Source: a virus. From it: 36,846 nucleotides of DNA. Under the pieces are notes generated by a model. The model was given only the letters and a program-made list of their open reading frames with translations, ran no database searches and was not told the origin of the DNA. Location: positions 1-36,846 of IMG/VR virus record IMGVR_UViG_3300024054_000180; one strand, given 5' to 3'. A program made the position numbers and the translations under genes. This document shows positions 1-18,691 of this stretch, one piece after another; position 1 is the stretch's first letter; each line of letters opens with the position of its first letter.

Positions 1-242
1 CACGAGGAGCGTGCAGGAGGGAACGCGGTGAACCTCCGCGTAGGGGCCATCTGCGCCCGCGGCCAGGGCGAGGCGGGGTTGCCGACCGTTCGGGCGTTGT
101 AGAGGCGGCCTCGAAAAGCCGGGGCCACCCCTGCGTTCCACCTGACATCGGTGAAGGGTGACCCCGAACAGTGCGCCCGGTCTGTAGACGGGGCTACTGC
201 CGGAAGGTGTGATCCAGACGACACGATGTCAGTTCGAAACGC
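1..242 (-). ncRNA. Structured RNA element, copy A (5' part, runs off left edge)
   Basis: This is a non-coding stretch read leftward. It matches the reverse complement of 16735-16983, with 60 of 60 identical bases at 1-60 (versus 16924-16983). The rest is diverged with indels that break every reading frame. On the minus-strand RNA a long stem forms from 224-232 with 142-150 (9 bp) and 236-242 with 133-139 (7 bp, one G-U). Its sequence differs from copy B but pairing is kept. The stem encloses a conserved core containing GGCAGUAGCCCCGU and GUUCGGGGUC. The G-U pair would be an A-C mismatch on the other strand, which supports minus-strand RNA. The stem starts where a transcript from the promoter at 249-277 should start. 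I do not recognise the family. It could be a long mRNA leader or a free RNA. Confidence 0.7.
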
Positions 243-248
243 GCGGCT

Positions 249-277
249 ATCGTATATCGTCCGGCTGGCTCTGTCCA
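249..277 (-). promoter_or_regulatory. Sigma-70-like promoter of RNA copy A
   Basis: On the minus strand there is a -35 box TGGACA (277-272), a 17-nt spacer and a -10 box TACGAT (254-249). Expected transcription start is near 242, which is the first base of the long stem of copy A. The flanking sequence resembles the promoter of copy B, and the TACGAT hexamer is shared. Confidence 0.55.
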
Positions 278-286
278 GCGGCCCAG

Positions 287-367
287 AAAACATCCGGGGC
301 CATCTCTGGCCTGGTCTGGATTATCCGAGCCAGTGCGGAGACGGCCCCAAACGGCAGGCGAGTGCGA
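287..367 (-). ncRNA. Short structured RNA unit C with terminator-like end
   Basis: The minus-strand transcript expected from the -10 at 372-377 would begin near 365. It folds into an 11-bp stem (348-338 with 306-296, one G-U pair), followed by GGAUG and a run of four U at 290-287. This has the form of an intrinsic terminator. Its arms resemble parts of the long RNAs: GCCGUUUGGGGCCGUC matches GCCGUUCGGGGUCGCC of copy B, and the sequence around GGCCCCGGAUGUUUUC matches GGCCCCGAAUGUUUUUC. It may be a shortened relative of copies A and B, or the terminator of unit D. Confidence 0.45.
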
Positions 368-371
368 GCAT

Positions 372-380
372 ATCGTAGCA
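372..380 (-). promoter_or_regulatory. Extended -10 element of unit C
   Basis: The minus strand reads TGCTACGAT (380-372), identical to the extended -10 of RNA copy B at 16720-16728. No convincing -35 box lies at the usual spacing, so this would be an extended -10 promoter. Confidence 0.4.
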
Positions 381-404
381 CGTCGCCAGGTCTGTTCGCC
401 CCCT

Positions 405-538
405 GCGCGCAACGACCCCGGGGGAAGGTGCCGGGGCCGTGCGCAGCCGCTATGGAGTAGTCGATGGTCGCGGACCCACCTACTGCCGGTGGCTCTCCGG
501 GTTATGGGCCCGGCGGATCGCTTGCTTCCCCGCCCGCG
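405..538 (-). ncRNA. Structured RNA unit D (tentative)
   Basis: This is the non-coding stretch just downstream of the isomerase gene, read leftward. The minus strand shows a stem of 531-525 with 427-421 (GGGGAAG/CUUCCCC). A further 6-bp pairing (544-539 with 410-405) would lie partly upstream of the expected start. Inside are a CCGGG/CCCGG hairpin and a CCACC/GGUGG hairpin (476-492) whose loop is GGCAGUA, the same heptamer conserved in copies A and B. It is probably a more distant member of the family, but it is also simply GC-rich, so the call is cautious. Confidence 0.35.
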
Positions 539-544
539 GCGCAC

Positions 545-553
545 ATCATAGCA
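545..553 (-). promoter_or_regulatory. Extended -10 element of unit D
   Basis: The minus strand reads TGCTATGAT immediately after the stop codon of the isomerase gene at 554. It is the same TGCTAYGAT pattern found before units B and C. No clear -35 box is seen at 16-18 nt. Confidence 0.35.
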
Positions 554-1123
554 CTAGCCGCGGTGGAGCACCTCGCTCAACGTCGCGGCGACCGCGTGAA
601 TCGCCGCCGCGTGTGCATCCTCGACCGGCCCGTAAGCGTCCTGTGGCAGGACCAAAGCCGCGTCGCAGAGTCCTGCCGCCGATCCGCCGCCGAAGCCAAG
701 CAAGCCGAGCCGTTTCAATCCTCGAGCGTGCGCCGCCTTCAGCGCCTCAAGTACGTTCTCGCTGTTGCCCGAGCCAGAGATCACGAGCAGCGCATCTTCG
801 GGGCGCACGGCATCCAGGTAAGTCGCGCCAACCGTCCTGTACCCGTAGTCGTTCGCCTGCGCCGACAGCCACGCGCTCTCGGCCATGATGTCGTGAGCGG
901 TCATGCCGAGTCCCCGCAGGTGCAGGACGAGGTGCGCGGCGTTCGCCTGTGATCCCCCGTTGCCGAGAACGTGGACGGCGCCCTGACGCTGCCAGCACGC
1001 CACCAGCGCGCGCGCGACCGCGGCGAGCTGGTCTGCGTCCGCGCGTGAGATCGTGGCCGCTGTCTGATCGAGATACCGGCGGATCGCCTCAGCGGTAGAA
1101 CTCGTGGATGGCGTCGCTGACAT
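554..1123 (-). CDS. SIS-domain phosphosugar isomerase, GmhA-like
   Basis: This 189-residue protein has the size and motifs of the GmhA (sedoheptulose-7-phosphate isomerase) branch of SIS proteins: a GNGGS phosphate loop (residues 54-58) and SGSGNSENV (116-124). GmhA converts sedoheptulose 7-phosphate to D-glycero-manno-heptose 7-phosphate, the first step to nucleotide heptoses. The true substrate here is an inference. The ATG start overlaps the upstream aminotransferase gene by 35 nt. It is the last gene of the sugar cluster, and non-coding structured sequence follows directly. The neighbouring HldE-like nucleotidyltransferase supports a heptose-like pathway. It could instead act on another ketose phosphate. 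Confidence 0.85.
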   Translation of the reverse strand: MSATPSTSSTAEAIRRYLDQTAATISRADADQLAAVARALVACWQRQGAVHVLGNGGSQANAAHLVLHLRGLGMTAHDIMAESAWLSAQANDYGYRTVGATYLDAVRPEDALLVISGSGNSENVLEALKAAHARGLKRLGLLGFGGGSAAGLCDAALVLPQDAYGPVEDAHAAAIHAVAATLSEVLHRG

Positions 1124-2234
1124 GCCGGATGTCCTCCTCGGTCAAGAACTGGTGAATGGGCAGCGACACGATCCGGTCGGCCTGCGCCTCGGCCACCGGG
1201 AAGTCGCCCGGCTGGTGGCCCAGCATGGCGAGCGCGGGTTGGGCGGCGAGCACCTTCGGGTAATGGACTTTTGCCTCGATGCCGCGCTCCGCCAGCACGT
1301 GCACGAGGTTGTCGCGGGAGTCGGCCTGAACGACGTATGTGTGGAACGCCTGCCGCTTGTCCGCCGGGCGCGGCGGGATCGTGATCTGCGGCAGGTCTGA
1401 TAACAGCCGGTCGTACATGGCGGAGTTCTGGTTCCTGCGATCGGTGATCCAGCCGAGTTCGGCCAGGTGCGCGTGCGCCGCCGCAGCCTGGATCGGTTCG
1501 AGGCGCGCGTTGTAGCCTGGCATCAGCCAGTCGTCGCGGGAGATCAGCCCGTGATTGCGCAGCCGCGCGAGCGTCACCATGAAGCGGTCGTCCCGCGACG
1601 TGACCATTCCGCCGTCGCCGGCCGCGTGGATGTTCTTCAGCGGGTGAAGCGAGTAGCACACGGCCTGCCCCAGCGCGCCGATGGGCCTGCCGCCGATCTC
1701 GGCGCCGACCGCCTGCGCCGCGTCGTGGATGATCGGCAGGTCCTCCCAGGCGCCAGCGGGAACGTCGACCGGGTTTCCGGTCCATGCCACGGGCATCACG
1801 GCGTCGATGGCCCCTGCCTTCAGGAGTTTTGTCACCTGCCGCTGGTCGATCAGGTACTCGTCATCAACGTCCACCAGCACCGGCCATGCGCCAGCCTGCA
1901 AGATCGCCCCGACCGACGCGTAGAAGGTGTTGACCGGGACCGCGATCCGCTTGCGTTCGCAGTCGCAGCGCGGCGCGTGAGTGACGTGGCCGAGGCCGAG
2001 ACCGATGATCGCGAGCGCGAGCGCGTCGGTGCCCGACCGCAGGCCTATCGCATGCGGAGCCCCGACCGCTTTGGCCCACGCCGTTTCGAAGTTCTCGACC
2101 GCTCGACCCAGCGTGAAGTCGCCCCGATCCACCAGGTCGGCCCAGCGCTTCTCGATGTCGGTTCGCAGGGGCCGACCGCGGGCGAGTTCCGTGGGAAGGT
2201 AGGCGTAGGGAACGCGGCGCGTGGCGGTGGTCAT
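1089..2234 (-). CDS. DegT/DnrJ/EryC1/StrS-family PLP sugar aminotransferase
   Basis: This 381-residue protein is the usual size for PLP-dependent aminotransferases that put an amino group on keto-sugars, normally nucleotide-linked. Visible motifs are RSGTDAL (66-72), which holds the cofactor phosphate, IHDAAQAVGA (169-178), whose Asp contacts the PLP pyridine, and SLHPLKN (195-201), whose Lys200 should form the Schiff base. GDGGM follows. An insert with a CDC pair (about 83-97) is unusual. The ATG overlaps the stop of the upstream gene as ATGA. Together with the nucleotidyltransferase and isomerase it suggests synthesis of an amino sugar. The substrate is unknown. Confidence 0.9.
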   Translation of the reverse strand: MTTATRRVPYAYLPTELARGRPLRTDIEKRWADLVDRGDFTLGRAVENFETAWAKAVGAPHAIGLRSGTDALALAIIGLGLGHVTHAPRCDCERKRIAVPVNTFYASVGAILQAGAWPVLVDVDDEYLIDQRQVTKLLKAGAIDAVMPVAWTGNPVDVPAGAWEDLPIIHDAAQAVGAEIGGRPIGALGQAVCYSLHPLKNIHAAGDGGMVTSRDDRFMVTLARLRNHGLISRDDWLMPGYNARLEPIQAAAAHAHLAELGWITDRRNQNSAMYDRLLSDLPQITIPPRPADKRQAFHTYVVQADSRDNLVHVLAERGIEAKVHYPKVLAAQPALAMLGHQPGDFPVAEAQADRIVSLPIHQFLTEEDIRHVSDAIHEFYR

Positions 2235-3340
2235 CGTGTGCCTCCATCGTGTCCGGCATCATCAAACACCCACACCCTGCCACACTCAGGGTAAACCGCT
2301 TGATGCTCCGATCCACCAATGCCCCCGATACAGACGAGCTTCTCGTTGTGGAGGCAGTTGTGATGATTCCACGCTTCGGCCGCCACGACGTAGTTCGCCC
2401 GCGCCCATTTGGTGACGGGGTTGAACCCCCAGTTGGCCGAGTTCGACTGGCACGTGATCGCGAGCCACCGCGCGTCGTCCGCGAGGGGATGGCCGGGCCA
2501 GAACAGGCCGTGTCCGAAATCGGCCGCGACCACCACGTCGCAGGCACCCGGTTTCTGGTAGGCGGCCCGCACGGTCTGAGGCTGCACGGTCTGGAACACC
2601 TTGTGCGTGAACGCCCGCTCGACGTACCGGCGCTTGACGACCGGCGCGGTCCCAGCGTCCCGATACCGCACCTTCCCGCAGTACGAGGTCAGGTGCGCGG
2701 CGACGATTGCCGCCCCGCCCTCCCACGAGTCAGTGCCATCGGGCGCGAACGAGATAAGCGTTTCCTTGGCCGACTTGCCCAGCGGTTCGACATAAACGTA
2801 CTCGTCCACGATGGGCTCGCCGTAGACCTCAACGACGAGCTTCGAGACGAGATCGAACCATGCCACCACTTCAGCCAGCGAAAAGCTCGCATGCACCGAC
2901 GCGATCCACTCAGCTGCGTGCTGCGGCCAGTTCGGTGCGTGCTGGTTCAGCCAGCGGGTAGACGACCCCCGCATGGTGTCGGCGAGCACGAAGCTGCCCC
3001 CGTACTCGGCCACCGCGGACCTCTCTGCTTCCAGGTTCCCCGCGAGGTCGAGCGTGCCGTACTCGTTGCCCTTGGCGTAGACCTGCGGCTGCAGCTCGCG
3101 GATCACCGGCACTACCGACGCGGAGCCCACGATGCGGACCTCGTCGACCATGCGAAGGCTCGCGAGCGCGTTCGCGCGCGCTTCCGCGGGGAACATCGGC
3201 CGTCCCGGTCCCCTGCGCACGTACTCGTCCGCGGTCACCGCCACGATCAGGCGGTCCCCGTACTTGCGGCACTCGGTCAGGTAGGCGATGTGGCCCGCGT
3301 GCAGCACCTCGAACACGCCGGACGCAAGAACGGTGGTCAC
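2231..3340 (-). CDS. RfaE/HldE-like nucleotidyltransferase fused to partial PfkB-type sugar kinase
   Basis: The GTG start at 3340 overlaps the radical SAM stop as GTGA and gives 369 residues. Residues 1-135 are a cytidylyltransferase-like domain with GVFEVLHAGH (8-17, HxGH motif) and SSTRW near 126-130, as in HldE, TagD and related enzymes. Residues 165-325 resemble ribokinase-type heptose kinases: IVDEYVYVEPLGKS, an EGGAA stretch (207-211), ADFGHG (273-278) and SNSANWGFNPVTKW. The order nucleotidyltransferase-kinase is the reverse of HldE. The last 45 residues show no GAGD catalytic motif, so the kinase half is probably incomplete or inactive. The role inferred is activation of a phosphorylated sugar with a nucleotide. 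Confidence 0.8.
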   Translation of the reverse strand: MTTVLASGVFEVLHAGHIAYLTECRKYGDRLIVAVTADEYVRRGPGRPMFPAEARANALASLRMVDEVRIVGSASVVPVIRELQPQVYAKGNEYGTLDLAGNLEAERSAVAEYGGSFVLADTMRGSSTRWLNQHAPNWPQHAAEWIASVHASFSLAEVVAWFDLVSKLVVEVYGEPIVDEYVYVEPLGKSAKETLISFAPDGTDSWEGGAAIVAAHLTSYCGKVRYRDAGTAPVVKRRYVERAFTHKVFQTVQPQTVRAAYQKPGACDVVVAADFGHGLFWPGHPLADDARWLAITCQSNSANWGFNPVTKWARANYVVAAEAWNHHNCLHNEKLVCIGGIGGSEHQAVYPECGRVWVFDDAGHDGGTR

Positions 3341-4488
3341 AGGAAGTTCAAATGCAGCGGCTTCGGTTCGTCCGGACCCGCGGGCACGATCCTCTCGATC
3401 CCCTTGACGTGCCGGTCCAGGGCGACGTTGGCGTGCCACGCTATCGGCAGCGCGCCCATGTGCAGCCGCGCGTCGAAGGCTGGCGACACGAGGTACTGCA
3501 TCGCCTGCCAGTAACGATCTGACCGGAAGATGTCCCGGAACGGCTCGTCGCAAATGTTCCCGACGTGGAGTTTCGCGTGCCGGTTCTGGAAGAACATCCC
3601 GTTCGGCGCCACGAGTCCCGACCCGGACACCTGCAGGAGCAGCGGGCAGGCCCACATGCGCGCGGGATCGTCTTCGCGCCGGCTTCTGATCTTCGACCAC
3701 TTCACGATGACCTTGGTGTCCTCGTTGCTCATCGCTTCGGCGTCGCGCAACGCCTGCTCGATCTCGTGGTAGCGCGCGTATTCCACGCCGAACGATCGGT
3801 TCTCGTCGTCCGACGTGTGTTTCAGGACCGCCGCCTGCACCTTCAGGTCGAGGGCGAGCTGCGCGAACGCCCTGACCTCCGCCGCGTCGTCTGGCGTGAG
3901 GAACGTCTGGATGCTCAAGGTCACGGGGAGTTTCCGCTTGCGCTTGATCTCCACCGCGGTCGAGATGTTCCGCATCGCCTTCCAGAACAGGTCGGTGCGC
4001 GTGGCGTCGGGGTACATCATGCGGGCGTAACTGGCAGGCGTCCCCGCCAGCACCGTGAAGCGGACCCACTTCAGGATCGGAAGGATCCGCTCCATGGTCT
4101 CGTCGGTCCACAGGAGGCCGTTGGTGGCGTTGCCGACGTCCATCCCGACTTCGGCGCAGCGTTCGATGAACGGCACGTACGCCTTCGAGAGCGTCGATTC
4201 GCCGTCCGAGATCATCGAGAGGCCCCGCACGCCGATCTCGGCGCAGTCGTCAACGAAGCGGAGCGCGGCATCGACGGTGATGTTCTCCCGCTCCCGGGGC
4301 TCCTGCGCCACCGCGTAGCACGCGCGGCACGCCACAGAGCACCCTCGGCTCAGGGCAAGGTCGATCGTGACGGGGGCCACGCGTTCGCCGGCGAGCAATT
4401 CCTCGACGCGGTCGTGGTGCCAGCGAATCTTACTGGCGTCGAACATGAGGGTGCCTTCCCTGGTCCGGACGCCCTGCGCGGTCGTCAT
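3337..4488 (-). CDS. Radical SAM protein
   Basis: This 383-residue protein carries the radical SAM cluster motif CSVACRAC (Cys50, Cys54, Cys57), followed by a GLSMISDGE stretch typical of the SAM-binding barrel. The C-terminal part (from about residue 280) has one Cys in WACPLL and a NRHAKLHVGNI stretch resembling the ends of SPASM-like proteins, but without a full set of cysteines. The ATG at 4488 forms an ATGA overlap with the upstream gene. Upstream in-frame starts would lie inside that gene and were rejected. Its place among sugar genes suggests a radical step on a sugar or on the modified product. The reaction is not predictable. Confidence 0.85.
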   Translation of the reverse strand: MTTAQGVRTREGTLMFDASKIRWHHDRVEELLAGERVAPVTIDLALSRGCSVACRACYAVAQEPRERENITVDAALRFVDDCAEIGVRGLSMISDGESTLSKAYVPFIERCAEVGMDVGNATNGLLWTDETMERILPILKWVRFTVLAGTPASYARMMYPDATRTDLFWKAMRNISTAVEIKRKRKLPVTLSIQTFLTPDDAAEVRAFAQLALDLKVQAAVLKHTSDDENRSFGVEYARYHEIEQALRDAEAMSNEDTKVIVKWSKIRSRREDDPARMWACPLLLQVSGSGLVAPNGMFFQNRHAKLHVGNICDEPFRDIFRSDRYWQAMQYLVSPAFDARLHMGALPIAWHANVALDRHVKGIERIVPAGPDEPKPLHLNFL

Positions 4489-4724
4489 CGTCGGCTCGCC
4501 TTCGCCTGCTGCTTCAGCGCACGGGCGCCGCGCGGGCACCAGGTCTCGTGCTTGCTGGTGTCCGTGGCCCGATTCCACGGCCCGCCGCAGATGCCGCAGC
4601 CGTGCTCGATCACCGTCGCCCGCGTCTCGCACGAGTGGAACAGGCCCGTCTGAACGGTGTCCGGCGCCAGCGCGATCGCCTGCTCCAGGAACGCGACGCG
4701 CGCCCTCAACTCCGCCTCGTTCAC
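4485..4724 (-). CDS. Small zinc-ribbon-like protein, unknown function
   Basis: This 79-residue protein has a GTG start overlapping the previous stop as GTGA and ends in an ATGA overlap with the radical SAM gene. It begins with a short heptad-like helix (residues 1-15). A Cys/His-rich centre follows (HSCE, HGCGICGGPW, HETWC), consistent with one zinc site, and then a basic tail. No family is recognised. The tight coupling suggests co-expression with the radical SAM protein. Confidence 0.65.
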   Translation of the reverse strand: MNEAELRARVAFLEQAIALAPDTVQTGLFHSCETRATVIEHGCGICGGPWNRATDTSKHETWCPRGARALKQQAKASRR

Positions 4725-5038
4725 TCGACCACCCTCACGCCGCGTAGCCGCCGCAGGGCGTTGCGGTCCTGCACGGCCTCCAGGTAGACGAGCAGCGACG
4801 GCTCCACGTTGGCGCGCAGGAAAGCCTCGACTCGCAGGAGCAGCGGCCCTCGCTCGGCGGCCTTCATCGTCTCCGGCACCCGGCAGGTGACGTGGCCGTT
4901 CGCCTGAGCTCGCAGGAACTCCACTGGCGGGCGCGTCCACGAAGCGCGCACGCGAGAGAGCCGCTCGTCGTCGGATAGGGCGCGCCACGCCTCGGTCGGC
5001 CGCGGCGTCTCGGCCCACGGATCGCTGATCCTCACCAT
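4721..5038 (-). CDS. Hypothetical protein in sugar cluster
   Basis: This 105-residue protein starts with ATG, 3 nt after the E1 beta stop, and ends in a GTGA overlap with the next gene. It is charged, without a signal peptide or membrane segment, and is probably mostly helical. I do not recognise it. The coding frame is supported only by gene packing and the absence of stops. Confidence 0.55.
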   Translation of the reverse strand: MVRISDPWAETPRPTEAWRALSDDERLSRVRASWTRPPVEFLRAQANGHVTCRVPETMKAAERGPLLLRVEAFLRANVEPSLLVYLEAVQDRNALRRLRGVRVVE

Positions 5039-5041
5039 CTC

Positions 5042-5704
5042 TCAGAACGGCCCTCCCTGTGGATGCACGACCGCGTCACGATAGTACGCCGCCTCCAGCG
5101 GGGCCGAGGCGGGCGCAGGGCCGCGTGGGATCGTCCAGTCGACGCGCGGTTCTGACTCGTCCCCCTCCTCGAGAGGCTGCCCGTAGTAGCGGCGACGCTC
5201 CATGATCACCGTGGGGTTCCCGGTCGCGAGAGCATTGCGGTAGGCGCGCCTGATGCCGTGGTAGGAGCGCGGCGTGAACAGGTCGATGCCTGGGACGTTC
5301 CACATTTCGAGCGGGGCCTTCGAGTGCATCGGCCCGCAACCCCAGCCTTCGCCGATGATGGCCCTGACCGTGATCGGGCAGGCGGTCCCGTGGATCATGC
5401 GCCACGTGGCCGCGGTGTTGAGCAGGTGTTCGGCGGACAGGTACGTGAAGTCGGCGCGCTGGTGGATCAGCCAGGGATGCCACCCCTCGGCGGCAAGCCC
5501 GACGCAGGCGCCCGTGAGCATCGTCTCCGACAGCGGCGTGTCGATGACGCGGCGTGGGAACCGCCGCGTGGCCTCGACCATGCTCCCGTAGATGTCCTTG
5601 CCGCCGTAGCGCGAGTCACCCACGCCGACGCCGAGGATGATCATGCGGGGGTCGGCTTCCATGAGCGCGACCGTCTCGGCAGAGAGAGCCTCGGCGTAGT
5701 TCAC
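5042..5704 (-). CDS. ThDP-dependent E1 beta-like subunit (transketolase pyrimidine domain)
   Basis: This 220-residue protein matches the first domain of the beta subunits of pyruvate/acetoin dehydrogenase E1. DTPLSE (55-60) corresponds to the DTPITE motif, whose Glu contacts the thiamin N1'. GEGWGCGPMHSKAPLEMW follows the layout of the domain around residues 118-136. Full E1 beta subunits are about 325 residues, and the C-terminal transketolase domain is absent here. The GTG start overlaps the preceding small gene as GTGA. It should form a heterodimer with the alpha subunit at 5877-6848. No E2 or E3 gene is nearby, which argues for a transketolase- or decarboxylase-like use in sugar chemistry. 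Confidence 0.85.
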   Translation of the reverse strand: MNYAEALSAETVALMEADPRMIILGVGVGDSRYGGKDIYGSMVEATRRFPRRVIDTPLSETMLTGACVGLAAEGWHPWLIHQRADFTYLSAEHLLNTAATWRMIHGTACPITVRAIIGEGWGCGPMHSKAPLEMWNVPGIDLFTPRSYHGIRRAYRNALATGNPTVIMERRRYYGQPLEEGDESEPRVDWTIPRGPAPASAPLEAAYYRDAVVHPQGGPF

Positions 5705-5880
5705 CGTACCGTCTCCACGATCTCGGTGAACCTGTGCTTGCGCAGCGCGTCGGCGATCACCTTCCCCGCCCCGTCGCGAACGTAGAGCGTTGCCGTGACC
5801 GTCGAAGGCTCGCCGGGGTTGATCTCGTTGGCGTCGAGGCCCAGCGCATCGCAGATCGCCAAGCCCTCGTCGCGACTCAT
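5701..5880 (-). CDS. Small protein between the E1 subunits
   Basis: This 59-residue protein has an ATG at 5880 that overlaps the E1 alpha stop as ATGA, and its own stop overlaps the E1 beta GTG as GTGA. An upstream in-frame GTG at 5889 exists, but the ATGA junction fits the local pattern better. The sequence looks like a small alpha/beta fold (STVTATLYVRDGAGK, then a helix). It may be an accessory piece of the E1 enzyme. No family is recognised. Confidence 0.6.
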   Translation of the reverse strand: MSRDEGLAICDALGLDANEINPGEPSTVTATLYVRDGAGKVIADALRKHRFTEIVETVR

Positions 5881-6848
5881 GCGGGCCACGGTGCGTCCTC
5901 TGCCGCCCGGAACGCGGCGTCTACCTGAGCGTCCACGACCCGACTAATGCCATCCGCCTTCTCGCCGGCTGCCCTCCGCAACGTTAGCAGGTGATCGCGG
6001 TTCAGCAGTTGATCGTGATCGATCTCCGGCCCTACGTGGGCACAGGCGCGGGTCGTGTCCACTTCAAGGATGGCGGGGCGCTGGCGGGCGAGCGACTGCA
6101 GGGCACCGAGCGCGCCTCCGTAGACGCTCGCGAAGTCGTCTAGTTCGTGCTCCACCGTGATCGCGTCCATGCCCTCGCCGACGGCGTAGCAGAACTGTTG
6201 CCACAGCTTGCCGCGACGAACATCCTGCGGCGTCGCGGTCGATAGCCCGTTGTCCTCGATCACGTAGAGCAGCCGCAAATTGTGCAGGCTGGCGAAGTTG
6301 AGCGACTCCCAGAACTGCCCGGTTTCTGGCACCGCGTCGCCGCAGAACACGACCGTCAGGCGGTGTGAGCCTTCCAGCTTCGCCGCCCACGCCGACCCAG
6401 TAGCCAACGACACCGCGGAGCCTACGATGGGCGTGCCCCCCATGAGTCCGTGCGCCTCGTCGTGCAGGTGCATTGAACCCGCCCGCCCGCCCGAACACCC
6501 GGTGGCCCGCCCGTATAACTCCGCGATCATCCGCTCCAAATCGCCGCCGAAGGCCAGGTACGGCGCGTGCGATCGGTGGCCGAACCAGACGTGCGGCAGG
6601 CCATTGGGCCAATACGCTCCCTGATAATCGTCGCCGTACATCGTGAGTTCTTGCTGCTCGACCGCCAGTGCCACGCCCACCGCGACGGTCTCCTGCCCCA
6701 CGCTCAGGTGCACGGGCGTCCTCATCGGCGACTTGCCAGGATCGGACGGGTCGGGGTGGTAACGCTCGCTGATCTCCGTCTCGACGCGGCGGATCAGGTA
6801 CGCCCGCCTGTAGGCTTCGATGAGAACGGAACCGCCCGACTCAGGCAT
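5877..6848 (-). CDS. ThDP-dependent E1 alpha-like subunit (dehydrogenase E1 component)
   Basis: This 323-residue protein matches E1 alpha of pyruvate/acetoin dehydrogenases. It has HLSVGQE (47-53), GRAGSMH (121-127) and the thiamin diphosphate motif beginning CGDA (169-172) and ending EDN (198-200), with Asp171 and Asn200 as the expected magnesium ligands. Usual length is about 320-360. It transfers two-carbon or acyl units from a 2-keto acid or ketose when paired with the beta subunit encoded just downstream. Phages rarely carry such pairs. The ATG start overlaps the stop of the preceding gene by 8 nt. Confidence 0.9.
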   Translation of the reverse strand: MPESGGSVLIEAYRRAYLIRRVETEISERYHPDPSDPGKSPMRTPVHLSVGQETVAVGVALAVEQQELTMYGDDYQGAYWPNGLPHVWFGHRSHAPYLAFGGDLERMIAELYGRATGCSGGRAGSMHLHDEAHGLMGGTPIVGSAVSLATGSAWAAKLEGSHRLTVVFCGDAVPETGQFWESLNFASLHNLRLLYVIEDNGLSTATPQDVRRGKLWQQFCYAVGEGMDAITVEHELDDFASVYGGALGALQSLARQRPAILEVDTTRACAHVGPEIDHDQLLNRDHLLTLRRAAGEKADGISRVVDAQVDAAFRAAEDAPWPA

Positions 6849-7083
6849 GCGGTTCCGCCAGCGCCGCGTCGATGTGGGCGCGGATGCCCCGAAGGTCCCT
6901 GCTCGCCGACAGCCAGTTGCAGCAACCGAGACGACACCGCACGGCGCGCGCGACCCACCAAATGTCCATGTAGCCTGGTCGCTGCACGCCGTAAACGGCC
7001 ACCCCGCGATAGTAGTGGTCGGCCTTCATGCGCGTCGCACTCCGAGTCGAGCGCGCCCGCGTCGGTGCCGACGAGCGGTTCAC
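6841..7083 (-). CDS. Hypothetical protein upstream of E1 alpha
   Basis: The 80-residue reading starts at a GTG preceded by GGAGG with a 5-nt spacer, which decides the start. A later ATG at 7029 (62 residues) lacks a ribosome site. The first 18 residues are Ser/Thr/Arg-rich. The rest (KADHYYRGVAVYGV, DIWWVARAVRC, ending in a helix) looks like a compact alpha/beta domain with a CRLGCC stretch. The function is unknown. Confidence 0.55.
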   Translation of the reverse strand: MNRSSAPTRARSTRSATRMKADHYYRGVAVYGVQRPGYMDIWWVARAVRCRLGCCNWLSASRDLRGIRAHIDAALAEPHA

Positions 7084-7103
7084 TTCCGCCTCCGTTGTGC
7101 TGG

Positions 7104-10623: not shown

Positions 10624-10670
10624 GGGTTCTCGTGCAGGGTCTTCGCGTTGGACCTGTGCGCCTGCCGGGA

Positions 10671-10676
10671 ATTATA
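10671..10676 (-). promoter_or_regulatory. TATAAT -10 box ahead of the portal gene
   Basis: A perfect TATAAT sits on the minus strand in the short gap after the terminase gene. Expected transcription start is near 10664, about 40 nt before the portal GTG. The -35 region is weak, so this may be a minor or activated promoter. Confidence 0.35.
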
Positions 10677-10680
10677 GAGG

Positions 10681-11967
10681 CTAGACGAACACGACCTGCT
10701 TCATCAGGTCCGTCGGAACCGAGACGTTCAGGCTGGCGAGCGCCCAGACCATGCCGTCGAGGCGGTCGGGCGACTTGCTGTTGGGGCCCGGAACCCACTG
10801 GCACATCTGCATTTCGAGTTCAGGGAACGGCCTCACGTGAAGCGCCCGCCCCTGCTCGTAGAGCGCCGACACCGGCTCGGCCCTGACCGCCTTGCCCCGC
10901 GTGGCGTTGACCTCTCGCACGGGCACGTTGGGGTCAACGGTCATGATCGTGTGCTTGACCATCGCGCCGCCGAAGTTCTTTTCGGCCGCGATCCAGCCCG
11001 CCTTGTGGTCGTGGTACGCCGCTATCGCCCGCCGCGCCCAGGTGTCCGGCGACACCGAGCCGTCCACCGACCGGTCGTCGAGGACGTACGCCTTGCCGTC
11101 TCGGGCCTTGGCGCCGACGACGATGCCGATCTCGCTGCCGCCGCCGCCGGCGGGATCGACCCCGACCACGCACGCGACGAGGTCGCGGCCGAGGTCCTGC
11201 CCATCCTTGTCCTTCGCGTGCGGCGGCTCCCGGTACTGGATCATCTGAGGCGTCCAGAGCGCTCCGGGCACGGTCTCCAGGTCCTCGGCCAGAATCTCCT
11301 GCCGGTAGGCCACCGACGTCATGTCCTTCGTGACGTCCGCGAGCCCTGCCCTCGACAGGTGCGGGTTGTCGAGCGACGTCCAGTGGAAGATGGCGGTGCG
11401 CCCGCTCTCGTCGGTGGCCGCCTGCCGCATCTGCTTCACCGCGTGCAGCGGGTCGCGGGCACGGCTCACCGTTTTGGTCCGCAGCGACGGGGGCGTGAAG
11501 GCGAACACGGCGTCCCCGTTGGTGTCCAGCATCATCGGGGCTCCGACGAGTTCCCAGGTGTCCTCGTTCATCAACTGGTATTCGTCGCATATCAGCAGGT
11601 CGGCGTAGTCGCCCCGGAGGGTATCGGCGTTGTAGGCGGTTTTCGCCCGGATGCGCTGCAGCGTTCCGGGGAGCTCGATCACGTGCTCGGTCTCGTTCTT
11701 GTAGAACACCCTGGCCGCTATCGGCTCGGCGAGCGCCGCCTTGACCTCGTACCAGAACCGGTCTATCTGGTCGTCCGTGGGCGTGGCGTAGAGCACGCGT
11801 CCGCCCGCCAGGAACCGCTCGACCGCCTTCATCGCCAGCCCCGTCGTCTTGCCGCCGCGCCTGCCGACGCGGGCGTAGATGCGCTTGGCCTTCGACTCCA
11901 CGAAGGCGCGCTGCTTCGGGTGCGCGTCCATGCTGCGCAGCCTGACCGTGAGGACCGCCTGCGTCAT
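10681..11967 (-). CDS. terL: Terminase large subunit
   Basis: This 428-residue packaging motor has an N-terminal ATPase with Walker A GRRGGKTT (35-42) and Walker B LLICDE (124-129). The C-terminal RNase H-like nuclease has VVGVDPAGG (Asp271) and DRLDGMVWAL (Asp401/Asp404) as likely metal ligands. It pumps DNA through the portal and cuts concatemers. Its length and motif order are typical for the family. The ATG lies 3 nt after the stop of the upstream 81-residue gene. Confidence 0.95.
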   Translation of the reverse strand: MTQAVLTVRLRSMDAHPKQRAFVESKAKRIYARVGRRGGKTTGLAMKAVERFLAGGRVLYATPTDDQIDRFWYEVKAALAEPIAARVFYKNETEHVIELPGTLQRIRAKTAYNADTLRGDYADLLICDEYQLMNEDTWELVGAPMMLDTNGDAVFAFTPPSLRTKTVSRARDPLHAVKQMRQAATDESGRTAIFHWTSLDNPHLSRAGLADVTKDMTSVAYRQEILAEDLETVPGALWTPQMIQYREPPHAKDKDGQDLGRDLVACVVGVDPAGGGGSEIGIVVGAKARDGKAYVLDDRSVDGSVSPDTWARRAIAAYHDHKAGWIAAEKNFGGAMVKHTIMTVDPNVPVREVNATRGKAVRAEPVSALYEQGRALHVRPFPELEMQMCQWVPGPNSKSPDRLDGMVWALASLNVSVPTDLMKQVVFV

Positions 11968-11970
11968 CGG

Positions 11971-12216
11971 TCAAGCATCCTGAAGCTGCGGTTCCGGTTC
12001 TGCGGCCACTTCGGAGTCGGCAAAACCGGAACTGCCTTCCTGTTCAAGCTCCTTCGCCAGGAGGCGCCTGAGCTTCGCGACCTCCGAGGTCGTGAGCTCG
12101 CGCCCGTCGCGCTCGCGCACGTTTTCCCTGATCGCGTCGATCCGGGCCTGAAGTTGCTCGAGCTGGGGCACGTCGAGAGACGGGCCTTTCAGGGCAGGTC
12201 GAAGTGGGTTACGCAT
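11971..12216 (-). CDS. Small hypothetical protein before large terminase
   Basis: This 81-residue protein is predicted to be largely helical, with a heptad-rich centre (VPQLEQLQARIDAIRENV) and an acidic C-terminus. It is encoded directly upstream of the terminase with a 3-nt gap. It could be a terminase partner or just an operon passenger. No family is recognised. Confidence 0.6.
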   Translation of the reverse strand: MRNPLRPALKGPSLDVPQLEQLQARIDAIRENVRERDGRELTTSEVAKLRRLLAKELEQEGSSGFADSEVAAEPEPQLQDA

Positions 12217-12225
12217 CGTAGGAGC

Positions 12226-12759
12226 CTATGCGGTACGGCTGAAACGGGACGGCATCGGGACTCCGAGCCGCTTGAGTGCTCGGTACTCGCGGTGATCGTT
12301 CGCCTGAGTTGACGGAGAGACGGAGTCCACCACGAACAGCGGTGCCATGAGGTCGAGCCGGTAATGATTGAGCATGGCACCACGCCTGACCCCGCCAGGG
12401 GTCACGTTCACGCAGTAGAAGCCGAGCTCTCGCCAGAAAGCATTCGCTTCGATGCTTGACCGGCAGCGTAACCGCACACCGGTCGCCCCGCCAGTTCGCG
12501 CAGCCGCGATCAGGCCCTCGACCATCCCGAGGCCGAGATGCTGGCGGCGGGCGTCGAAGTCCACGCAAGCCTGGTAAACCGTCACGTCGCGCCCGTGATG
12601 GACCGGGCCGTGCCACAGGTATCCGGCTGGCTCGCCGTTGTCCTCGCAGGCGATCACGCGGCCGGCTGCAAGATCACTTTCGAGACGGTCACGCGGATAG
12701 AAGGCAAGGCTTCCGCTGTTTACCTTCTGCAAGTGGTCAAGATATGTGATGGGAATCAT
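12226..12759 (-). CDS. GNAT-family N-acetyltransferase
   Basis: This 177-residue protein follows the GNAT fold. It has a beta stretch VIACEDNGEPAGYLWHGP, a central strand VYQACVDFDARRQHLGLGMVEGLI (62-85) with the acetyl-CoA loop RxxGLG, and a late ANAFWRELGFYCVN motif (about 104-117). The final 40 residues are an extension. Small GNAT genes of this type occur next to phage packaging genes. The substrate is unknown. The ATG joins the preceding stop as TGATG. Confidence 0.75.
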   Translation of the reverse strand: MIPITYLDHLQKVNSGSLAFYPRDRLESDLAAGRVIACEDNGEPAGYLWHGPVHHGRDVTVYQACVDFDARRQHLGLGMVEGLIAAARTGGATGVRLRCRSSIEANAFWRELGFYCVNVTPGGVRRGAMLNHYRLDLMAPLFVVDSVSPSTQANDHREYRALKRLGVPMPSRFSRTA

Positions 12760-13073
12760 CAGTTGCCAGCTTCACCAGGGATGAAAGCGGCATCGCGGGC
12801 CCTCCTCGCGCGGCACTCGCGCTCCAGGAGACGGGCCAGTCGTTCCATCGGGTGGGAACTAGCGGGCCTCCCGATCCGGCAGGCCACGATCACGAGGTAC
12901 GTCACGTACCACGGCAGGACGCCCCAGGAGCTCGCCTCGTCGAAGTGATAGAGCTCGTGACCCCGCAGGCAAGGATCGTCGCGGTCGCGGCGGATCACGA
13001 TGAAGGGCCAGAGCATGATCGCGTGCACGGCGAGGAGGGGCACGCGGTCCACGAGGATGAAGCGGGGCCTCAT
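12759..13073 (-). CDS. Small HExxH protein, putative metalloprotease-like, membrane-associated
   Basis: This 104-residue protein has two hydrophobic stretches (LLAVHAIMLWPFIVI and GVLPWYVTYLVIVACRI) and HELYH between them, a zinc-peptidase HExxH motif. The arrangement resembles short phage proteins with a minimal M48/M56-like core. The ATG at 13073 forms ATGA with the stop of the hidden upstream gene. A longer TTG reading was rejected. The target is unknown. Confidence 0.6.
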   Translation of the reverse strand: MRPRFILVDRVPLLAVHAIMLWPFIVIRRDRDDPCLRGHELYHFDEASSWGVLPWYVTYLVIVACRIGRPASSHPMERLARLLERECRARRARDAAFIPGEAGN

Positions 13074-13243
13074 CGTCCTGCACCCCAACTCCCGCCCGCA
13101 GCCGTCGCGATCCTGTCACACGGCCGGCAGCCTAGCGACCACGGGATGCCATGCATGCAGCACTTGATGTCTGCATGGAACGGGCAAGTAGGACTGATGC
13201 CCCCGGTCGAGCAGGTACACGAGAGCGGAGCCTGAGAGGTCAA
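13070..13243 (-). CDS. Cysteine-rich small zinc protein with TTG start
   Basis: This 57-residue reading starts with TTG at 13243. The TTG is preceded by AGGAGG with a 5-nt spacer and overlaps the upstream stop as TTGA. It ends in an ATGA overlap with the next gene. The protein has seven cysteines (9, 11, 20, 28, 29, 39, 42) and two histidines (SCTCSTG, TCPFHADIKCCMHG, GCRPC), consistent with one or two zinc sites. The gene fills what would otherwise be the only sizeable gap in this operon. The unusual start makes it easy to miss. Confidence 0.65.
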   Translation of the reverse strand: MTSQAPLSCTCSTGGISPTCPFHADIKCCMHGIPWSLGCRPCDRIATAAGGSWGAGR

Positions 13244-13956
13244 TCAAGCCTCCTGCCGCAATTCTTGCAGACCGTGACGGTCACGGGCTCGTGCTCGCAG
13301 GCCATGCCCGTGGCGGGGTCCTTCGTTTGCGACGTGGCGCGCGGCGGAAATGGTGGCGTCTGAGCACCTCGCGCGACCTCGCGCTCTAGCTGTTTTCGTC
13401 CCTCTACAGGGTCTATCGTGGCGACTTTCGTAACCCGTTCGCGGGCGTTTTCAGATAGGGGCCGTATCTGACGCTCGCTCAAAATGGGACCCAGGGTCCC
13501 GTCGTTCACTGGCGCGGGCAACATGGCGAGAAAACGCTGGTGCCGGAGTGCCCTGTCCGCGTGACGCCTGGACAGCTTCATCTCACCCGCGATGAAGCCC
13601 TCCCACGTCTGATAGCCCATGTCCCGCCAGAGGTCCGTGTCGTGGATCGCGAGCAGCTGGCGACCGAGCCGGTCCATGTCGTCATAAATGCGCTCGACCT
13701 CGCGGTTCAGGCCCACGACGATCCGGCGCACGTCCTCGACAGTCCGCGGGACCTCTACCACCTCGGCCTGCTTGGTAGCGATCCTGCCTCCGTCCAGCGC
13801 GATCACCTGCATCGCGATTCGGGAATCCTGCTTCGGCGTCCTGGATTCTTTGCGCTTCGGGGCCTGATCCTCAGCGCCGACCAGGACGTGCCCCTCGTAG
13901 CTGTAATGCGGGTGGTCGCAGACCTTGCAGACGGGCGCGCCGCGGGCCACCGTCAC
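13240..13956 (-). CDS. Hypothetical protein with terminal zinc motifs
   Basis: This 238-residue protein starts at GTG directly after the small terminase stop. A second in-frame GTG 6 nt later has better spacing from AAGGG and may be used. The N-terminus has CKVCDHPHYSYEGH and the C-terminus has CEHE...CKNC, suggesting zinc sites at both ends. The centre is helical (VEDVRRIVVGLNREVERIYDDM, SRRHADRALRHQRFLAML), with an LSERQIRPL stretch like those in ParB/DUF-type DNA-binding regulators. It may bind DNA. It sits between terminase subunits, so a packaging or regulatory role is possible. Confidence 0.65.
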   Translation of the reverse strand: MTVARGAPVCKVCDHPHYSYEGHVLVGAEDQAPKRKESRTPKQDSRIAMQVIALDGGRIATKQAEVVEVPRTVEDVRRIVVGLNREVERIYDDMDRLGRQLLAIHDTDLWRDMGYQTWEGFIAGEMKLSRRHADRALRHQRFLAMLPAPVNDGTLGPILSERQIRPLSENARERVTKVATIDPVEGRKQLEREVARGAQTPPFPPRATSQTKDPATGMACEHEPVTVTVCKNCGRRLD

Positions 13957-14439
13957 CTACCCTTGCCCTTCGCTGTTGCTGCCATCTCCGAGAGCCTCCT
14001 GCTGCTTCACGGCGACGTCGTACACGACGCGTAGCGTGACGGGGCCGCCGCCTTCGCCTGCCAGCCTCACGGGAGCGTCCAGCCCGAGGAGCCGAGCGCG
14101 CCGCTCCAACAACTTGATTACCCGGTCGATTGCGCCCTGGTTGCCCTGTGTGGCCTGGGGCCAGAGGCCGAGCAACATGCGCTCCAGCCTTTCCTGATCC
14201 AGTTTTCGCAACTCCTCCGCCGGTTCCCTGAGCGTCCTGTCGAGGGCAGCCTTGACGGCCTCGTAGGCTCCCTGGGGGCCGGCGTAGCCGAGGCGCTCGG
14301 CGATCACGGGGAAAGAGGCCCCGGCGATCCTGAGTTGGAGCGCTTCGGCCTGCTTCTGCAGCACGGTGATGACGTGGGGAGAGAGCTTGGAGCGACCCCG
14401 TAGGCTTCCCGGCATCCTGCCCGAACCCTTGCCCCCCAT
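13957..14439 (-). CDS. Putative terminase small subunit
   Basis: This 160-residue protein begins with a basic segment and a helix-turn-helix-like region (about 22-60: LQLRIAGASFPVIAERLGYA, then a recognition helix). A long helical segment ends in LLERRARLLGLDAPVR, a stretch common in phage small-terminase-like proteins. Its position two loci ahead of the large subunit supports DNA recognition for packaging. The ATG joins the methylase stop as TGATG. It could also be a general DNA-binding protein. Confidence 0.65.
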   Translation of the reverse strand: MGGKGSGRMPGSLRGRSKLSPHVITVLQKQAEALQLRIAGASFPVIAERLGYAGPQGAYEAVKAALDRTLREPAEELRKLDQERLERMLLGLWPQATQGNQGAIDRVIKLLERRARLLGLDAPVRLAGEGGGPVTLRVVYDVAVKQQEALGDGSNSEGQG

Positions 14440-15695
14440 CAGGCGAGCCTCGGCGTCTTGCCGGTGGCATCAGCCCAACGTTGGAGAGCGACCGCGACGT
14501 AGGCGGGAGAGATTTCCATGCCGTAGCAGACGCGGCCGAGGCGTTCGGCAGCGATGAGCGTGGTCCCGGAGCCGAGGAACGGGTCGTAGACCACATCGCC
14601 GGGGTCGCTGTGCCGCGCGATGGCGTTCAGGGGCAGTTCGAGCGGCTTCATTGTGGGGTGCTCCCGGTTCGCCCTGGGCTTGTCCACGTCCCATACCGAG
14701 GTCGTAAACAGCCCATCGCCAACTCGCTTGTGCGTGGCCTTCCAGGTGAACAGGATCGGCTCATGCTGGTATTCGTAGTCGAGGCGCCCAAGCGAGAACG
14801 TGGGCTGGTTCTTGCGCCAGATCAGCACGTGGCGCACAGGGAGTCCAGCCTCTCTCATCATCATCATCATCAGGCCAAGGCTGCCGCCCTGCGGCGCGCA
14901 GACGAAGATCGAGCAGTCACCGGCCATCACGAGGCGGCACGTCTTGTCGAACACGCTGAGCAGCATGGCGTATAAGTCCCGTTCTGAGGAATCGTCGGAG
15001 GCGAGATCGGCCAGGTTCCTTCCAGCGGGCTGGAAGGAGTTTAGAAACCGGTTCTTGGCTCCTATCGAGACGCCGTAGGGCGGATCGGTGAACACGACGG
15101 TGGCCTGCGCCGTGCGCACGAGCATTTCGATGTGCTCAATGACGCCGCTGTCTCCGCACATCACGCGATGCTCGCCCAGCGTCCAGACCTGCCCGCGCTC
15201 GACGCCCCACTTTTCGCGAAGCTCCTCGGCCTCGTTGAGGCGCGGTTCGACATCGACCGCGACCTCATCGGGCAGCGGCTGCGTCTCGCCGTTCGCGAGG
15301 GCTTCGAGCATGTCCTTGACGGCCTGCGATTCCGTCTCGACAGATGCGAGCAGATCGAGCAGCTTGTCCTGATCGGGCTGCGCCATCGCCGCCAGCGGAT
15401 CGAGGGTCGCCAGCATCAGGTCGGCCTCGGCCTCGTCAACGTCGAGCACCAGGACGGGGACCAGCGCTGCGCCCATCTCCTCGGCCCGCAGGTGCCCGTC
15501 GATGAGCATCAGGCCGTCCGGCGTCTCGCGCGCCAGCACCGCGTCTGCAAAACCGATCTGTTCCAGGATGCCCCGCAGGGCTGCGCGCTGCGCCGGCGGA
15601 TGTCGGCGCCAATTGCGGGGAGATGGTCGCAGCGATGAGGCCGGGACGCGGCGCAGTTCCCTTATGCGGTCGCGGACGCGCGCGCTCCTCGCCAT
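14439..15695 (-). CDS. ParB-like domain fused to DNA methyltransferase
   Basis: This 418-residue protein starts at ATG 15695, 17 nt after the regulator stop. A longer reading overlapping the regulator was rejected. Residues about 15-100 resemble ParB/Srx domains (LRPSPRNWRRHP, LMLIDGHLRAE). Residues 170-418 form a beta-class amino methyltransferase with DPPYG (204-208) ahead of DPFLGSGTT (371-379). Such fusions are common in phages and methylate adenine or cytosine amino groups. Five consecutive Met codons (residues 276-280) reflect a CAT trinucleotide repeat. The likely role is self-protection or marking of DNA before packaging. Confidence 0.88.
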   Translation of the reverse strand: MARSARVRDRIRELRRVPASSLRPSPRNWRRHPPAQRAALRGILEQIGFADAVLARETPDGLMLIDGHLRAEEMGAALVPVLVLDVDEAEADLMLATLDPLAAMAQPDQDKLLDLLASVETESQAVKDMLEALANGETQPLPDEVAVDVEPRLNEAEELREKWGVERGQVWTLGEHRVMCGDSGVIEHIEMLVRTAQATVVFTDPPYGVSIGAKNRFLNSFQPAGRNLADLASDDSSERDLYAMLLSVFDKTCRLVMAGDCSIFVCAPQGGSLGLMMMMMREAGLPVRHVLIWRKNQPTFSLGRLDYEYQHEPILFTWKATHKRVGDGLFTTSVWDVDKPRANREHPTMKPLELPLNAIARHSDPGDVVYDPFLGSGTTLIAAERLGRVCYGMEISPAYVAVALQRWADATGKTPRLA

Positions 15696-15712
15696 GCCGG
15701 ATCGAGGCGTGC

Positions 15713-15898
15713 CTACGGAATAAAGCCGCGCCGACGGGCTCGCTGGATCAGGCGCGAGACGGCCGACTGTGAAATGCCCCAACGTGCGGCTATCTGGGCC
15801 TGCGTCATCCCGGCCTGGCGGTACTCGGCCAACTGGCGCAGCCGCTCTTCGACGAGCTTGGCGATGGTCTCTCGAATCGGGGTCGCAGTGGTGGTCAT
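15713..15898 (-). CDS. Small HTH transcriptional regulator
   Basis: This 61-residue protein is a helix followed by a helix-turn-helix (residues 30-55, MTQAQIAARWGISQSAVSRLIQ) and a basic tail. The ATG lies only 6 nt downstream of a consensus TATAAT, so the mRNA is probably leaderless. The gene faces away from the early plus-strand operon across a shared promoter region, the classic position for a switch regulator. It could repress one or both promoters. Confidence 0.75.
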   Translation of the reverse strand: MTTTATPIRETIAKLVEERLRQLAEYRQAGMTQAQIAARWGISQSAVSRLIQRARRRGFIP

Positions 15899-15904
15899 GC
15901 GGGC

Positions 15905-15913
15905 ATTATAACA
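15905..15913 (-). promoter_or_regulatory. Extended -10 promoter for leaderless regulator/packaging operon
   Basis: The minus strand reads TGTTATAAT, a perfect extended -10 (TGnTATAAT). No -35 box is seen. Expected start is at 15898-15899, the first base of the regulator ATG. This would drive the packaging operon leftward. Confidence 0.65.
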
Positions 15914-15917
15914 CTTG

Positions 15918-15947
15918 TTGACAGCGCCCGGCGACGAGGCGTATGCT
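15918..15947 (+). promoter_or_regulatory. Sigma-70-like promoter for early plus-strand operon
   Basis: A perfect TTGACA (15918-15923) is followed by an 18-nt spacer and TATGCT (15942-15947). It lies 5 nt from the divergent -10, so the two promoters are likely co-regulated. AAGGAG precedes the first plus-strand ATG. Confidence 0.6.
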
Positions 15948-15969
15948 ATGTGTCATACAAGGAGCCCCG

Positions 15970-16257
15970 ATGACCAACTACCCCGCCATGTCGCTCTATG
16001 CCCACGCGCATGCGCCGTGGGCCGCCGACCGCCACGCGCGGACCTGCCCGCTGAACGCTGACGCGCGCGCAGATCGCAAGGTCCCGACCCACCGCTGCGA
16101 CGAGGGGCACTACTTCAACGCGGACGACCTGCCCGCGCTCGAAGAGAGTCCCCGGCTCGCGACCTGCCCGCTGTTCCACAAGGATGACCCCAGCTACGAC
16201 GACGGGCCGTGCGGCGCCGAGCTTCGCGAGCTGGACTGCACCTGCCCGGATGTCTAG
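15970..16257 (+). CDS. Hypothetical Cys/His-rich protein, first early gene
   Basis: This 95-residue protein starts at an ATG preceded by AAGGAG (5-nt spacer). An upstream in-frame TTG lies inside the promoter and was rejected. Cys and His pairs are spread along the sequence (CPLNAD, HRCDEGHYF, CPLFH, DCTCPDV), suggesting a zinc-binding fold. The ending CTCPDV is acidic. First genes after an early phage promoter often take over host functions, but no specific role is visible. Confidence 0.7.
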   Translation: MTNYPAMSLYAHAHAPWAADRHARTCPLNADARADRKVPTHRCDEGHYFNADDLPALEESPRLATCPLFHKDDPSYDDGPCGAELRELDCTCPDV

Positions 16258-16567
16258 CCGTGCGACTCACGCAAGCCCGCGACCGTGGCGCGCAGTTGGC
16301 AATCGCCCGTGGGCAATCTGCCCCAACGGCAGTGACGAGACCGTGTGGGCCAACATCGCCAATGCCGAGTTCATCGTCCGCGCCGTCAACGTCCACGACT
16401 TGATGCGCGAGGCGCTGGAGGGCGCTGCCGAGTTTCTGAAACACTCTGGCAACCAGCGCGCCGTGCTGTCCGGCAAGTTCACAACGCCGAGCGCACGCTA
16501 TGCCTGGTTCCAACGAACGAAAGCCAAGATCGCCGCCGCGCTCGCCGCGGCCGAGGGGCGGGCGTGA
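16250..16567 (+). CDS. Hypothetical protein
   Basis: This 105-residue protein starts at an ATG that overlaps the end of the previous gene by 8 nt. The N-terminal 30 residues are basic and Pro-rich. The remainder is helical (VWANIANAEFIVRAVNVHDLMREALEGAAEFL). The phrase about residues with no data and the spacing of WANIANAEFI resemble small unassigned phage proteins. No function is assigned. Confidence 0.6.
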   Translation: MSSRATHASPRPWRAVGNRPWAICPNGSDETVWANIANAEFIVRAVNVHDLMREALEGAAEFLKHSGNQRAVLSGKFTTPSARYAWFQRTKAKIAAALAAAEGRA

Positions 16568-16701
16568 TGCTCTGCGAACACGGCTACACAGCGTTCTACG
16601 ACTGCCCGATCTGCCTATGTCCGCTATGCGAGAAGCCGATGGCGGAGTGCAACGGTCACGACGAGGACAACGCAGACGCCGAGGATCGAGATGCCACATA
16701 G
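16567..16701 (+). CDS. Small zinc-ribbon protein
   Basis: This 44-residue protein has an ATG that overlaps the previous stop as TGATG. Cysteines are arranged as CEHGYTAFYDCPICLCPLCEK, typical of a single zinc knuckle, followed by an acidic tail. Its stop codon overlaps the -35 box of the promoter for RNA copy B. Confidence 0.6.
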   Translation: MLCEHGYTAFYDCPICLCPLCEKPMAECNGHDEDNADAEDRDAT

Positions 16702-16728
16702 ACAACTCCCGCCGGACGATGCTACGAT
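16699..16728 (+). promoter_or_regulatory. Sigma-70 extended -10 promoter of RNA copy B
   Basis: TAGACA (16699-16704), an 18-nt spacer and TGCTACGAT (16720-16728) form a good promoter reading rightward. Expected start at 16735 is the first base of the long stem of copy B, matching the promoter/stem geometry of copy A. Confidence 0.65.
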
Positions 16729-16734
16729 GCACGC

Positions 16735-16983
16735 GCTCCCAGTCCGATCCAGTGTCGTTTCGGATTACACCTTCGGCAGTAGCCCCGTGCAAACACCGGG
16801 CATGCCGTTCGGGGTCGCCCTTCACCTGGATCGGGTGGGAGCAGGGGTGGCCCCGAATGTTTTTCAGGCGGGCGTCATCCCTACAACGCCCGAACGGCCG
16901 GCAACCCCGCTCTCGCAACGGCTGCGGGCGCAGATGGCCCCTACGCGGAGGTTCACCGCGTTCCCTCCTGCACGCTCCTCGTG
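16735..16983 (+). ncRNA. Structured RNA element, copy B; may be the 5' leader of the recombination operon
   Basis: This non-coding sequence is the inverted counterpart of 1-242. Its long stem pairs 16735-16741 with 16836-16842 (7 bp) and 16744-16752 with 16826-16834 (9 bp), all Watson-Crick. Ten of the 16 pairs differ in sequence from copy A, yet all pair in both. Inside, the CCCCGUG-CAAA-CACCGGG hairpin replaces CCCCGUC-UACA-GACCGGG of copy A. The 3' part includes ACGCGG/CCGCGU and GCACG/CGUGC hairpins and a CCUCCU sequence that could pair with Shine-Dalgarno sites. The next gene starts at 17122, so the transcript may be a 387-nt leader. From 16984 to 17121 I see further GC-rich hairpins, for example 17039-17044 region CGGAAG/CTTCCG, but no U-run terminator. 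Confidence 0.72.
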
Positions 16984-18687: not shown

Positions 18688-18691
18688 GGAG

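Follow-up and report, generated by a model that had tools for sequence, protein, structure and literature searches.

The window analysed here, the whole 36,846-nucleotide (nt) stretch of the IMG/VR record IMGVR_UViG_3300024054_000180, a linear virus record, carries two inverted copies of a structured RNA, RNA A and RNA B (coordinates refer to the window unless a contig is named). Based on the sequence, we propose that each copy acts in cis as a two-state transcription attenuator in which a covarying stem, S1, serves as the antiterminator, and that the copies head a late (A) and an early (B) operon of the phage, names that we infer from gene content. We put the probability of this reading at about 0.6.

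Self-comparison of the window places copy A at 242 to 1 on the minus strand and copy B from 16735 rightward, as inverted, non-coding homologues with 83% identity over 234 nt, which agrees with the places and strands given in an initial annotation made from the sequence alone. The conserved element is longer than first noted, as B extends to ~17074, with 84% identity across ~143 nt in the 3' part. Scanning the entire window for the consensus returns only three sigma-70-like promoters, two of which are those of A and B. The first base of S1 lies 7 nt past the -10 hexamer TACGAT in both copies, just where transcription had been expected to begin. We also concur that the copies share no protein, because indels of 1, 8 and 2 nt break any common frame and, by reading, the substitutions have no third-position bias.

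S1 consists of two parts, of 7 and 9 base pairs (bp), in both copies. Between A and B, nine pairs have undergone double changes, one a G-U exchange, and six are unchanged, such that 10 of 16 pairs differ and yet all remain paired, as the initial annotation had claimed. When the same number of substitutions was placed at random, all 16 pairs were kept in 7 of 2,000,000 placements (chance ~3.5e-6). Helix scores were obtained from a manual A/B alignment with 200 column shuffles as control, the 3' part of A being taken from an overlapping contig, G001. The inner 9 bp of S1 (five compensatory changes) rank first, with a score of 19 against 16 for the best shuffle, followed by the outer 7 bp (four compensatory changes, one G-U), a 14-bp helix (two one-sided changes between the copies), a 10-bp long-range pairing (one compensatory, one G-U change), hairpin D2 (four one-sided G-U-type changes) and helix P9 (two one-sided changes). 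Judged from this alignment, the sequence of the S1 helix is free and that of the enclosed core is fixed, because 14 of 35 S1 positions are conserved as compared with 61 of 72 in the core. The C-G to G-C swap reported for a smaller hairpin is likewise present (GTC/GAC in one copy, GTG/CAC in the other). All six of the best conserved helices lie on the predicted strand and several contain G-U pairs in one copy only; these strand-specific exchanges uphold the earlier point that G-U pairing fits the strand read from the adjacent promoter. The 5' 142–148 nt fold far below shuffled sequences (z of -5.1 and -6.8, compared with -3.5 and -4.3 for the reverse strand).

A second conserved helix, of 14–17 bp and followed by a T-tract, looks like an intrinsic terminator. 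Its arms are the 3' part of the core (TCGGGGTCRCCCTT) and the segment right after S1 (AGGGGTGGCCCCGR), which form a GC-rich hairpin adjoining the U-tract. Because the 3' strand of S1 lies inside this helix, the S1 and terminator folds are mutually exclusive, and D2 is also incompatible with the terminator. Searching 43.5 kb on both strands for hairpins of at least 12 bp before TTTT recovers the terminators of A and B and one related hairpin, A0, only; 60 shuffles yield 0.52 hairpins of at least 10 bp before TTTT per genome and none above 14 bp. By reading, the terminator arms stay paired between A0 and B with two double changes. Both leaders contain what is looked for in an attenuator, namely a terminator hairpin with a U-tract and a competing, conserved antiterminator stem, here S1, which covaries and excludes the terminator. 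For an RNA that ends at the U-tract, the two folds differ by 3.2 kcal/mol in A and 1.6 kcal/mol in B. Base-pair probabilities computed as the chain grows favour S1 first, then briefly the terminator, until completion of D2 brings S1 back.

We propose that the leader RNA folds during transcription, with the promoter setting the first base at S1 and S1 closing the 72-nt core. Formation of S1 would block the terminator and allow polymerase to continue into the operon behind it, early for B and late for A; if S1 were prevented from forming or melted, transcription would end at ~+125 to +135. Read-through is the likely default, since S1 can form before the 3' arm of the terminator is made. The outcome would be set by some factor acting on the 5' strand of S1 or on the conserved core, the latter being the likely sensing or binding part. 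Ribosome-mediated attenuation is an unlikely means, as S1 begins at the first transcribed base. More tentatively, and at somewhat less than even odds, the RNA may represent a new class of phage attenuator in which the 72-nt core acts as sensor of a factor from phage or host, with one signal setting termination for replication genes and for capsid and tail genes.

The late operon would be subject to a further termination step, because an ordinary intrinsic terminator, GAGCGCCCAAATCGGGCGCTC-GTTTGTTTT (L006 611-631), lies between leader A and the protease gene. This is the genome's only short-loop intrinsic terminator under strict criteria (0 in 20 shuffles), and homology of the protease to its relatives begins past it, at the ATG at L006 652. 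Locus A has the layout of the lambda PR'-tR' type, with a promoter (277-249), a leader, an intrinsic terminator (L006 611-631) and late genes. Inspection and folding place a terminator right before the protease start in relatives as well, namely L027-L030, L033 and, at its contig end, L031. This arrangement suggests that head genes throughout the group are controlled by antitermination; since terminators occupy this position, late expression in these phages probably depends on antitermination. Promoter-like sequences are seen upstream of the protease terminator in L033 and L027.

The element had not been recognised as a known riboswitch, ribozyme or phage RNA, and the Rfam search was indeed negative: there is no match at gathering thresholds, and at E<=10 both B and a related contig, L001, gave below-threshold noise only, so that at neither setting did an aptamer family of a known riboswitch class appear. 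The candidates mir-593, Ms_IGR-4 and Twister-P5 from the E<=10 scans were rejected as far below their own thresholds. DNA patterns run against viral contigs retrieved nothing beyond chance matches and contigs of this phage itself, blastn against phage and plasmid collections gave no weighty match, and a gapped pattern found two unrelated stretches only among genome contigs. A covariance model, R1, which as a control recovers both of its own copies, had no match in relatives found via terminase, capsid and exonuclease or in a set of 773 bacterial genomes drawn from two arbitrarily chosen groups. The large RNA was not found by blastn, nhmmer or R1 in terminase relatives (48–55% identity) or capsid relatives (41–57%), and among the relatives seen it occurs only in the phage of the window. 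These negatives hold for the collections and patterns used.

Overlapping contigs place the two copies in a larger genome. G001 (25,475 bases) matches window 18092-36846 at 99.98% and its opposite end reaches window 336-13, while contig L019 supplies a missing 6.4-kb piece; together, window and IMG/VR contigs form a closed circle of about 43.2 kb. On this circle, prohead protease, capsid and tail genes come after RNA A, and RNA B precedes a small gene and then YqaJ exonuclease, RecT and replication genes. A third block, read leftward, encodes a helix-turn-helix (HTH) protein, a methylase, terminase, portal and sugar genes and ends just before promoter A. Protein matches gave no host assignment: among named phages, a Methanosarcina virus comes closest by terminase (52%), and the matches of RecT and exonuclease are scattered across many hosts.

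The contigs also qualify one feature of the initial annotation, the 60 identical bases shared by A and B. The run exists (1-60 = 16924-16983), but its conservation was overstated, as ~48 nt are a B-type tail. Following the shared GCGGGCGCAGAT, locus A reads AGAAACGCACTGG... in both G001 and L019, as against the B-type GGCCCCTACG... of window 1-48, and we therefore regard the identity as mostly a B tail on copy A and reject selection as its cause. Mosaic A/B alleles are present in separate contigs of one phage (window 1-60; L006 97-430; L019 1-175). That of G001 comprises an A head, 174 nt identical to B and an A tail, and one mosaic junction falls inside GCGGGCGCAGAT. The alleles look as if they arose by recombination between the inverted copies (RecT is encoded nearby), or else are assembly chimeras. 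S1 is broken in the G001 mosaic and the terminator is favoured at all lengths computed, so that this head-swapped allele, seen in one database contig, is expected to stay fixed in the terminating fold.

Several points weigh against the attenuator proposal. The evidence comes from two copies in one phage lineage and is derived from sequence. The U-tract of A is short, with four T. The 14-bp helix scores 16, equal to the best of 200 column shuffles, and a G+C-rich RNA of this kind allows many alternative helices. Folding was treated as an equilibrium calculation that covers neither pseudoknots nor kinetics. The G001 allele breaks S1, which means either that this contig is chimeric or that S1 is dispensable in that strain. 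Finally, the 3' domain, half of the element, is left unexplained by the switch model; its folding is not above that of shuffles, though its sequence is conserved. An outer stem considered for this domain, GCCCGA/TCGGGC, was dropped in favour of the 10-bp long-range pairing, with which it competes and which has better support.

The initial annotation had envisaged a cis-acting leader like the put RNAs of phage HK022. Operon positions, promoters, G-U exchanges and terminators favour its core, a cis-acting RNA that heads two transcripts and controls termination; put itself fits in outline only. In a put-like mechanism the leader would bind its own RNA polymerase and carry it through downstream terminators, such as that before the protease gene. 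Put RNAs are ~70 nt long, act on RNA polymerase at distant terminators and share the present layout, without need of a protein (PMC9378689), and here too two copies stand behind phage promoters, two adjacent stem-loops run from the first base, and a terminator separates RNA A from the protease gene. However, the 5' domain alone (142–148 nt) is about twice the length of put, no similarity to the RNA was found in the phage collection, lambdoid phages included, no intrinsic terminator was found shortly past RNA B, and an internal terminator hairpin competes with the main stem. Because each copy thus has its own terminator in competition with a covarying stem, we favour an attenuator and consider put-like action unlikely. 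A somewhat less probable alternative is a phage protein of the lambda N or Q type that loads at the conserved promoter spacer or at the leader RNA and overrides terminators. The spacer motif GCCGGACGAT is common to A and B, and the succession of promoter, leader, terminator and late genes recurs in diverged relatives without the RNA (L027-L030 and L033, and L031 by inspection), but such a protein would leave the covarying S1 and the internal switch unexplained, and neither an N-like nor a Q-like antiterminator was recognised among the Pfam and PHROGs matches of the selected proteins, several early proteins being without any match.

It is also conceivable, with odds lower again, that transcripts persist as stable small RNAs and act elsewhere, ending either at the U-tract (~130 nt) or at the terminator that precedes the protease gene (~535 nt). 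Their own promoters, strong structure and terminators at both ends are consistent with such trans action; yet both copies precede co-directional operons, and a role in cis is favoured by the divergence of the S1 strands between the copies. No specific support emerged, and no target search was made. We give least weight to a purely DNA-level role, in which recombination or inversion sites form inverted repeats that merely resemble RNA stems, and regard it as very improbable. Contig joins do mix A and B (A body with B tail in the window; A head, 174-nt B body and A tail in G001), one of them inside the shared motif, but these mosaics may reflect RecT-type recombination or assembly error, no invertase-type recombinase was recognised among the scanned proteins, and G-U exchanges and compensatory changes would go unexplained.

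Other features of the window were recorded alongside the two RNAs (Table 1). The third sigma-70-like promoter, TTGACA-N18-TATGCT at 15918-15947 (+), lies upstream of RNA B and precedes small rightward genes without family matches. A block of sugar/cofactor metabolism genes at 554-7083 (-), encoding SIS, DegT aminotransferase, cytidylyltransferase and two E1-dehydrogenase-like subunits, lies between the portal gene and RNA A, an unusual position for a head-gene cluster. A match to PHROG 645 gives 13957-14439 (-) the label 'Rnase E', which is probably wrong: this sequence lies upstream of the terminase gene and may encode the small terminase subunit. In the single open reading frame at 24439-25230 (+), the first 44 residues match a DNA methyltransferase and the remainder a Holliday junction resolvase, which may reflect a fusion or a start codon placed too far upstream. 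A direct repeat within tail-region genes (28132-28366 / 28924-29158; 239 nt at 68% identity) has the appearance of a duplication inside a gene.

Table 1. Features of the two RNA loci and of related terminators, in window coordinates unless a contig is named.
Feature	Position	Strand	Basis or remark
Promoter of RNA A, TGGACA-N17-TACGAT, GCCGGACGAT in spacer	249..277	-	consensus scan
RNA A, A-type portion inside window	49..242	-	own 3' part in G001 (L006 ~286-430) and L019
RNA A, S1 5' strand, starting 7 nt past -10 hexamer	224..242	-	alignment, coordinates
RNA A, S1 3' strand (16 bp in total with 5' strand)	133..150	-	alignment, coordinates
RNA A, hairpin D2, 5' arm common with terminator	101..132	-	alignment, folding
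RNA A, terminator hairpin, 14 bp, then CTTTTC	119..167	-	folding, genome hairpin search; excludes S1, D2 and long-range pairing
B-type tail on copy A at contig end	1..48	-	contig comparison; recombinant or misassembly
A0, related 16-bp terminator hairpin and ATGTTTTC, between sugar-gene operon end and promoter A	287..353	-	genome hairpin search; terminator copy at 291-353
Promoter of RNA B, TAGACA-N18-TACGAT, GCCGGACGAT in spacer	16699..16728	+	consensus scan
RNA B, entire conserved element, leader of gene starting 17122	16735..17074	+	A/B comparison
RNA B, S1 5' strand	16735..16752	+	alignment, coordinates
RNA B, S1 3' strand	16826..16842	+	alignment, coordinates
RNA B, 10-bp long-range pairing, 5' side	16804..16813	+	alignment, coordinates
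RNA B, 10-bp long-range pairing, 3' side	16889..16898	+	alignment, coordinates
RNA B, terminator hairpin, 17 bp, then ATGTTTTTC	16806..16859	+	folding, genome hairpin search
RNA B, hairpin D2	16843..16882	+	alignment, folding
RNA B, 3' domain: P9 (16919-16927 with 17016-17024), P8 (16954-16961 with 16992-16999)	16919..17024	+	alignment, folding
Relatives' intrinsic terminator directly 5' of prohead protease start	L027 8752-8926; L033 8880-8995; L031 1-49		inspection

What is known of termination control in phages concerns mainly proteins (N and Q) and one small RNA (put). If our proposal is correct, phages would have a further means of timing infection, either protein-free or ligand-driven, in a large bistable leader common to early and late operons, and because both folds, the decision point and mutually rescuing base pairs can be named, the proposal is directly testable. 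Like HK022 putL and putR, the RNAs described here are two related leaders behind phage promoters, with adjacent stem-loops and a suspected role in termination control (PMC9378689); put, however, serves two early operons of a lambdoid phage, whereas here each copy has its own terminator and one precedes late genes. The lambda PR'-tR'/Q system resembles locus A and its relatives in its promoter, short leader and intrinsic terminator ahead of late genes, and differs in that here a large conserved RNA lies within the leader and a Q-like protein was not recognised among the proteins scanned. Riboswitches are reported to be rare in phages, and the glutamine riboswitch of phage Melnitz provides a precedent for a structured regulatory RNA in a phage genome (PMC9004378), although such phage-borne riboswitches belong to known bacterial classes, of which the present RNA matches none. 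Compared with attenuators and ON-type riboswitches, in which antiterminator and terminator stems exclude each other, the RNA matches no Rfam family, exists as two copies in one phage (early and late operon), and has an unusually long closing stem of 16 bp and an additional conserved 3' domain. What it has in common with them is a promoter-proximal leader, a conserved core within a stem of variable sequence and conserved pairing, a terminator and U-tract that overlap this closing stem, and near-equal energies of the two folds at the decision point.

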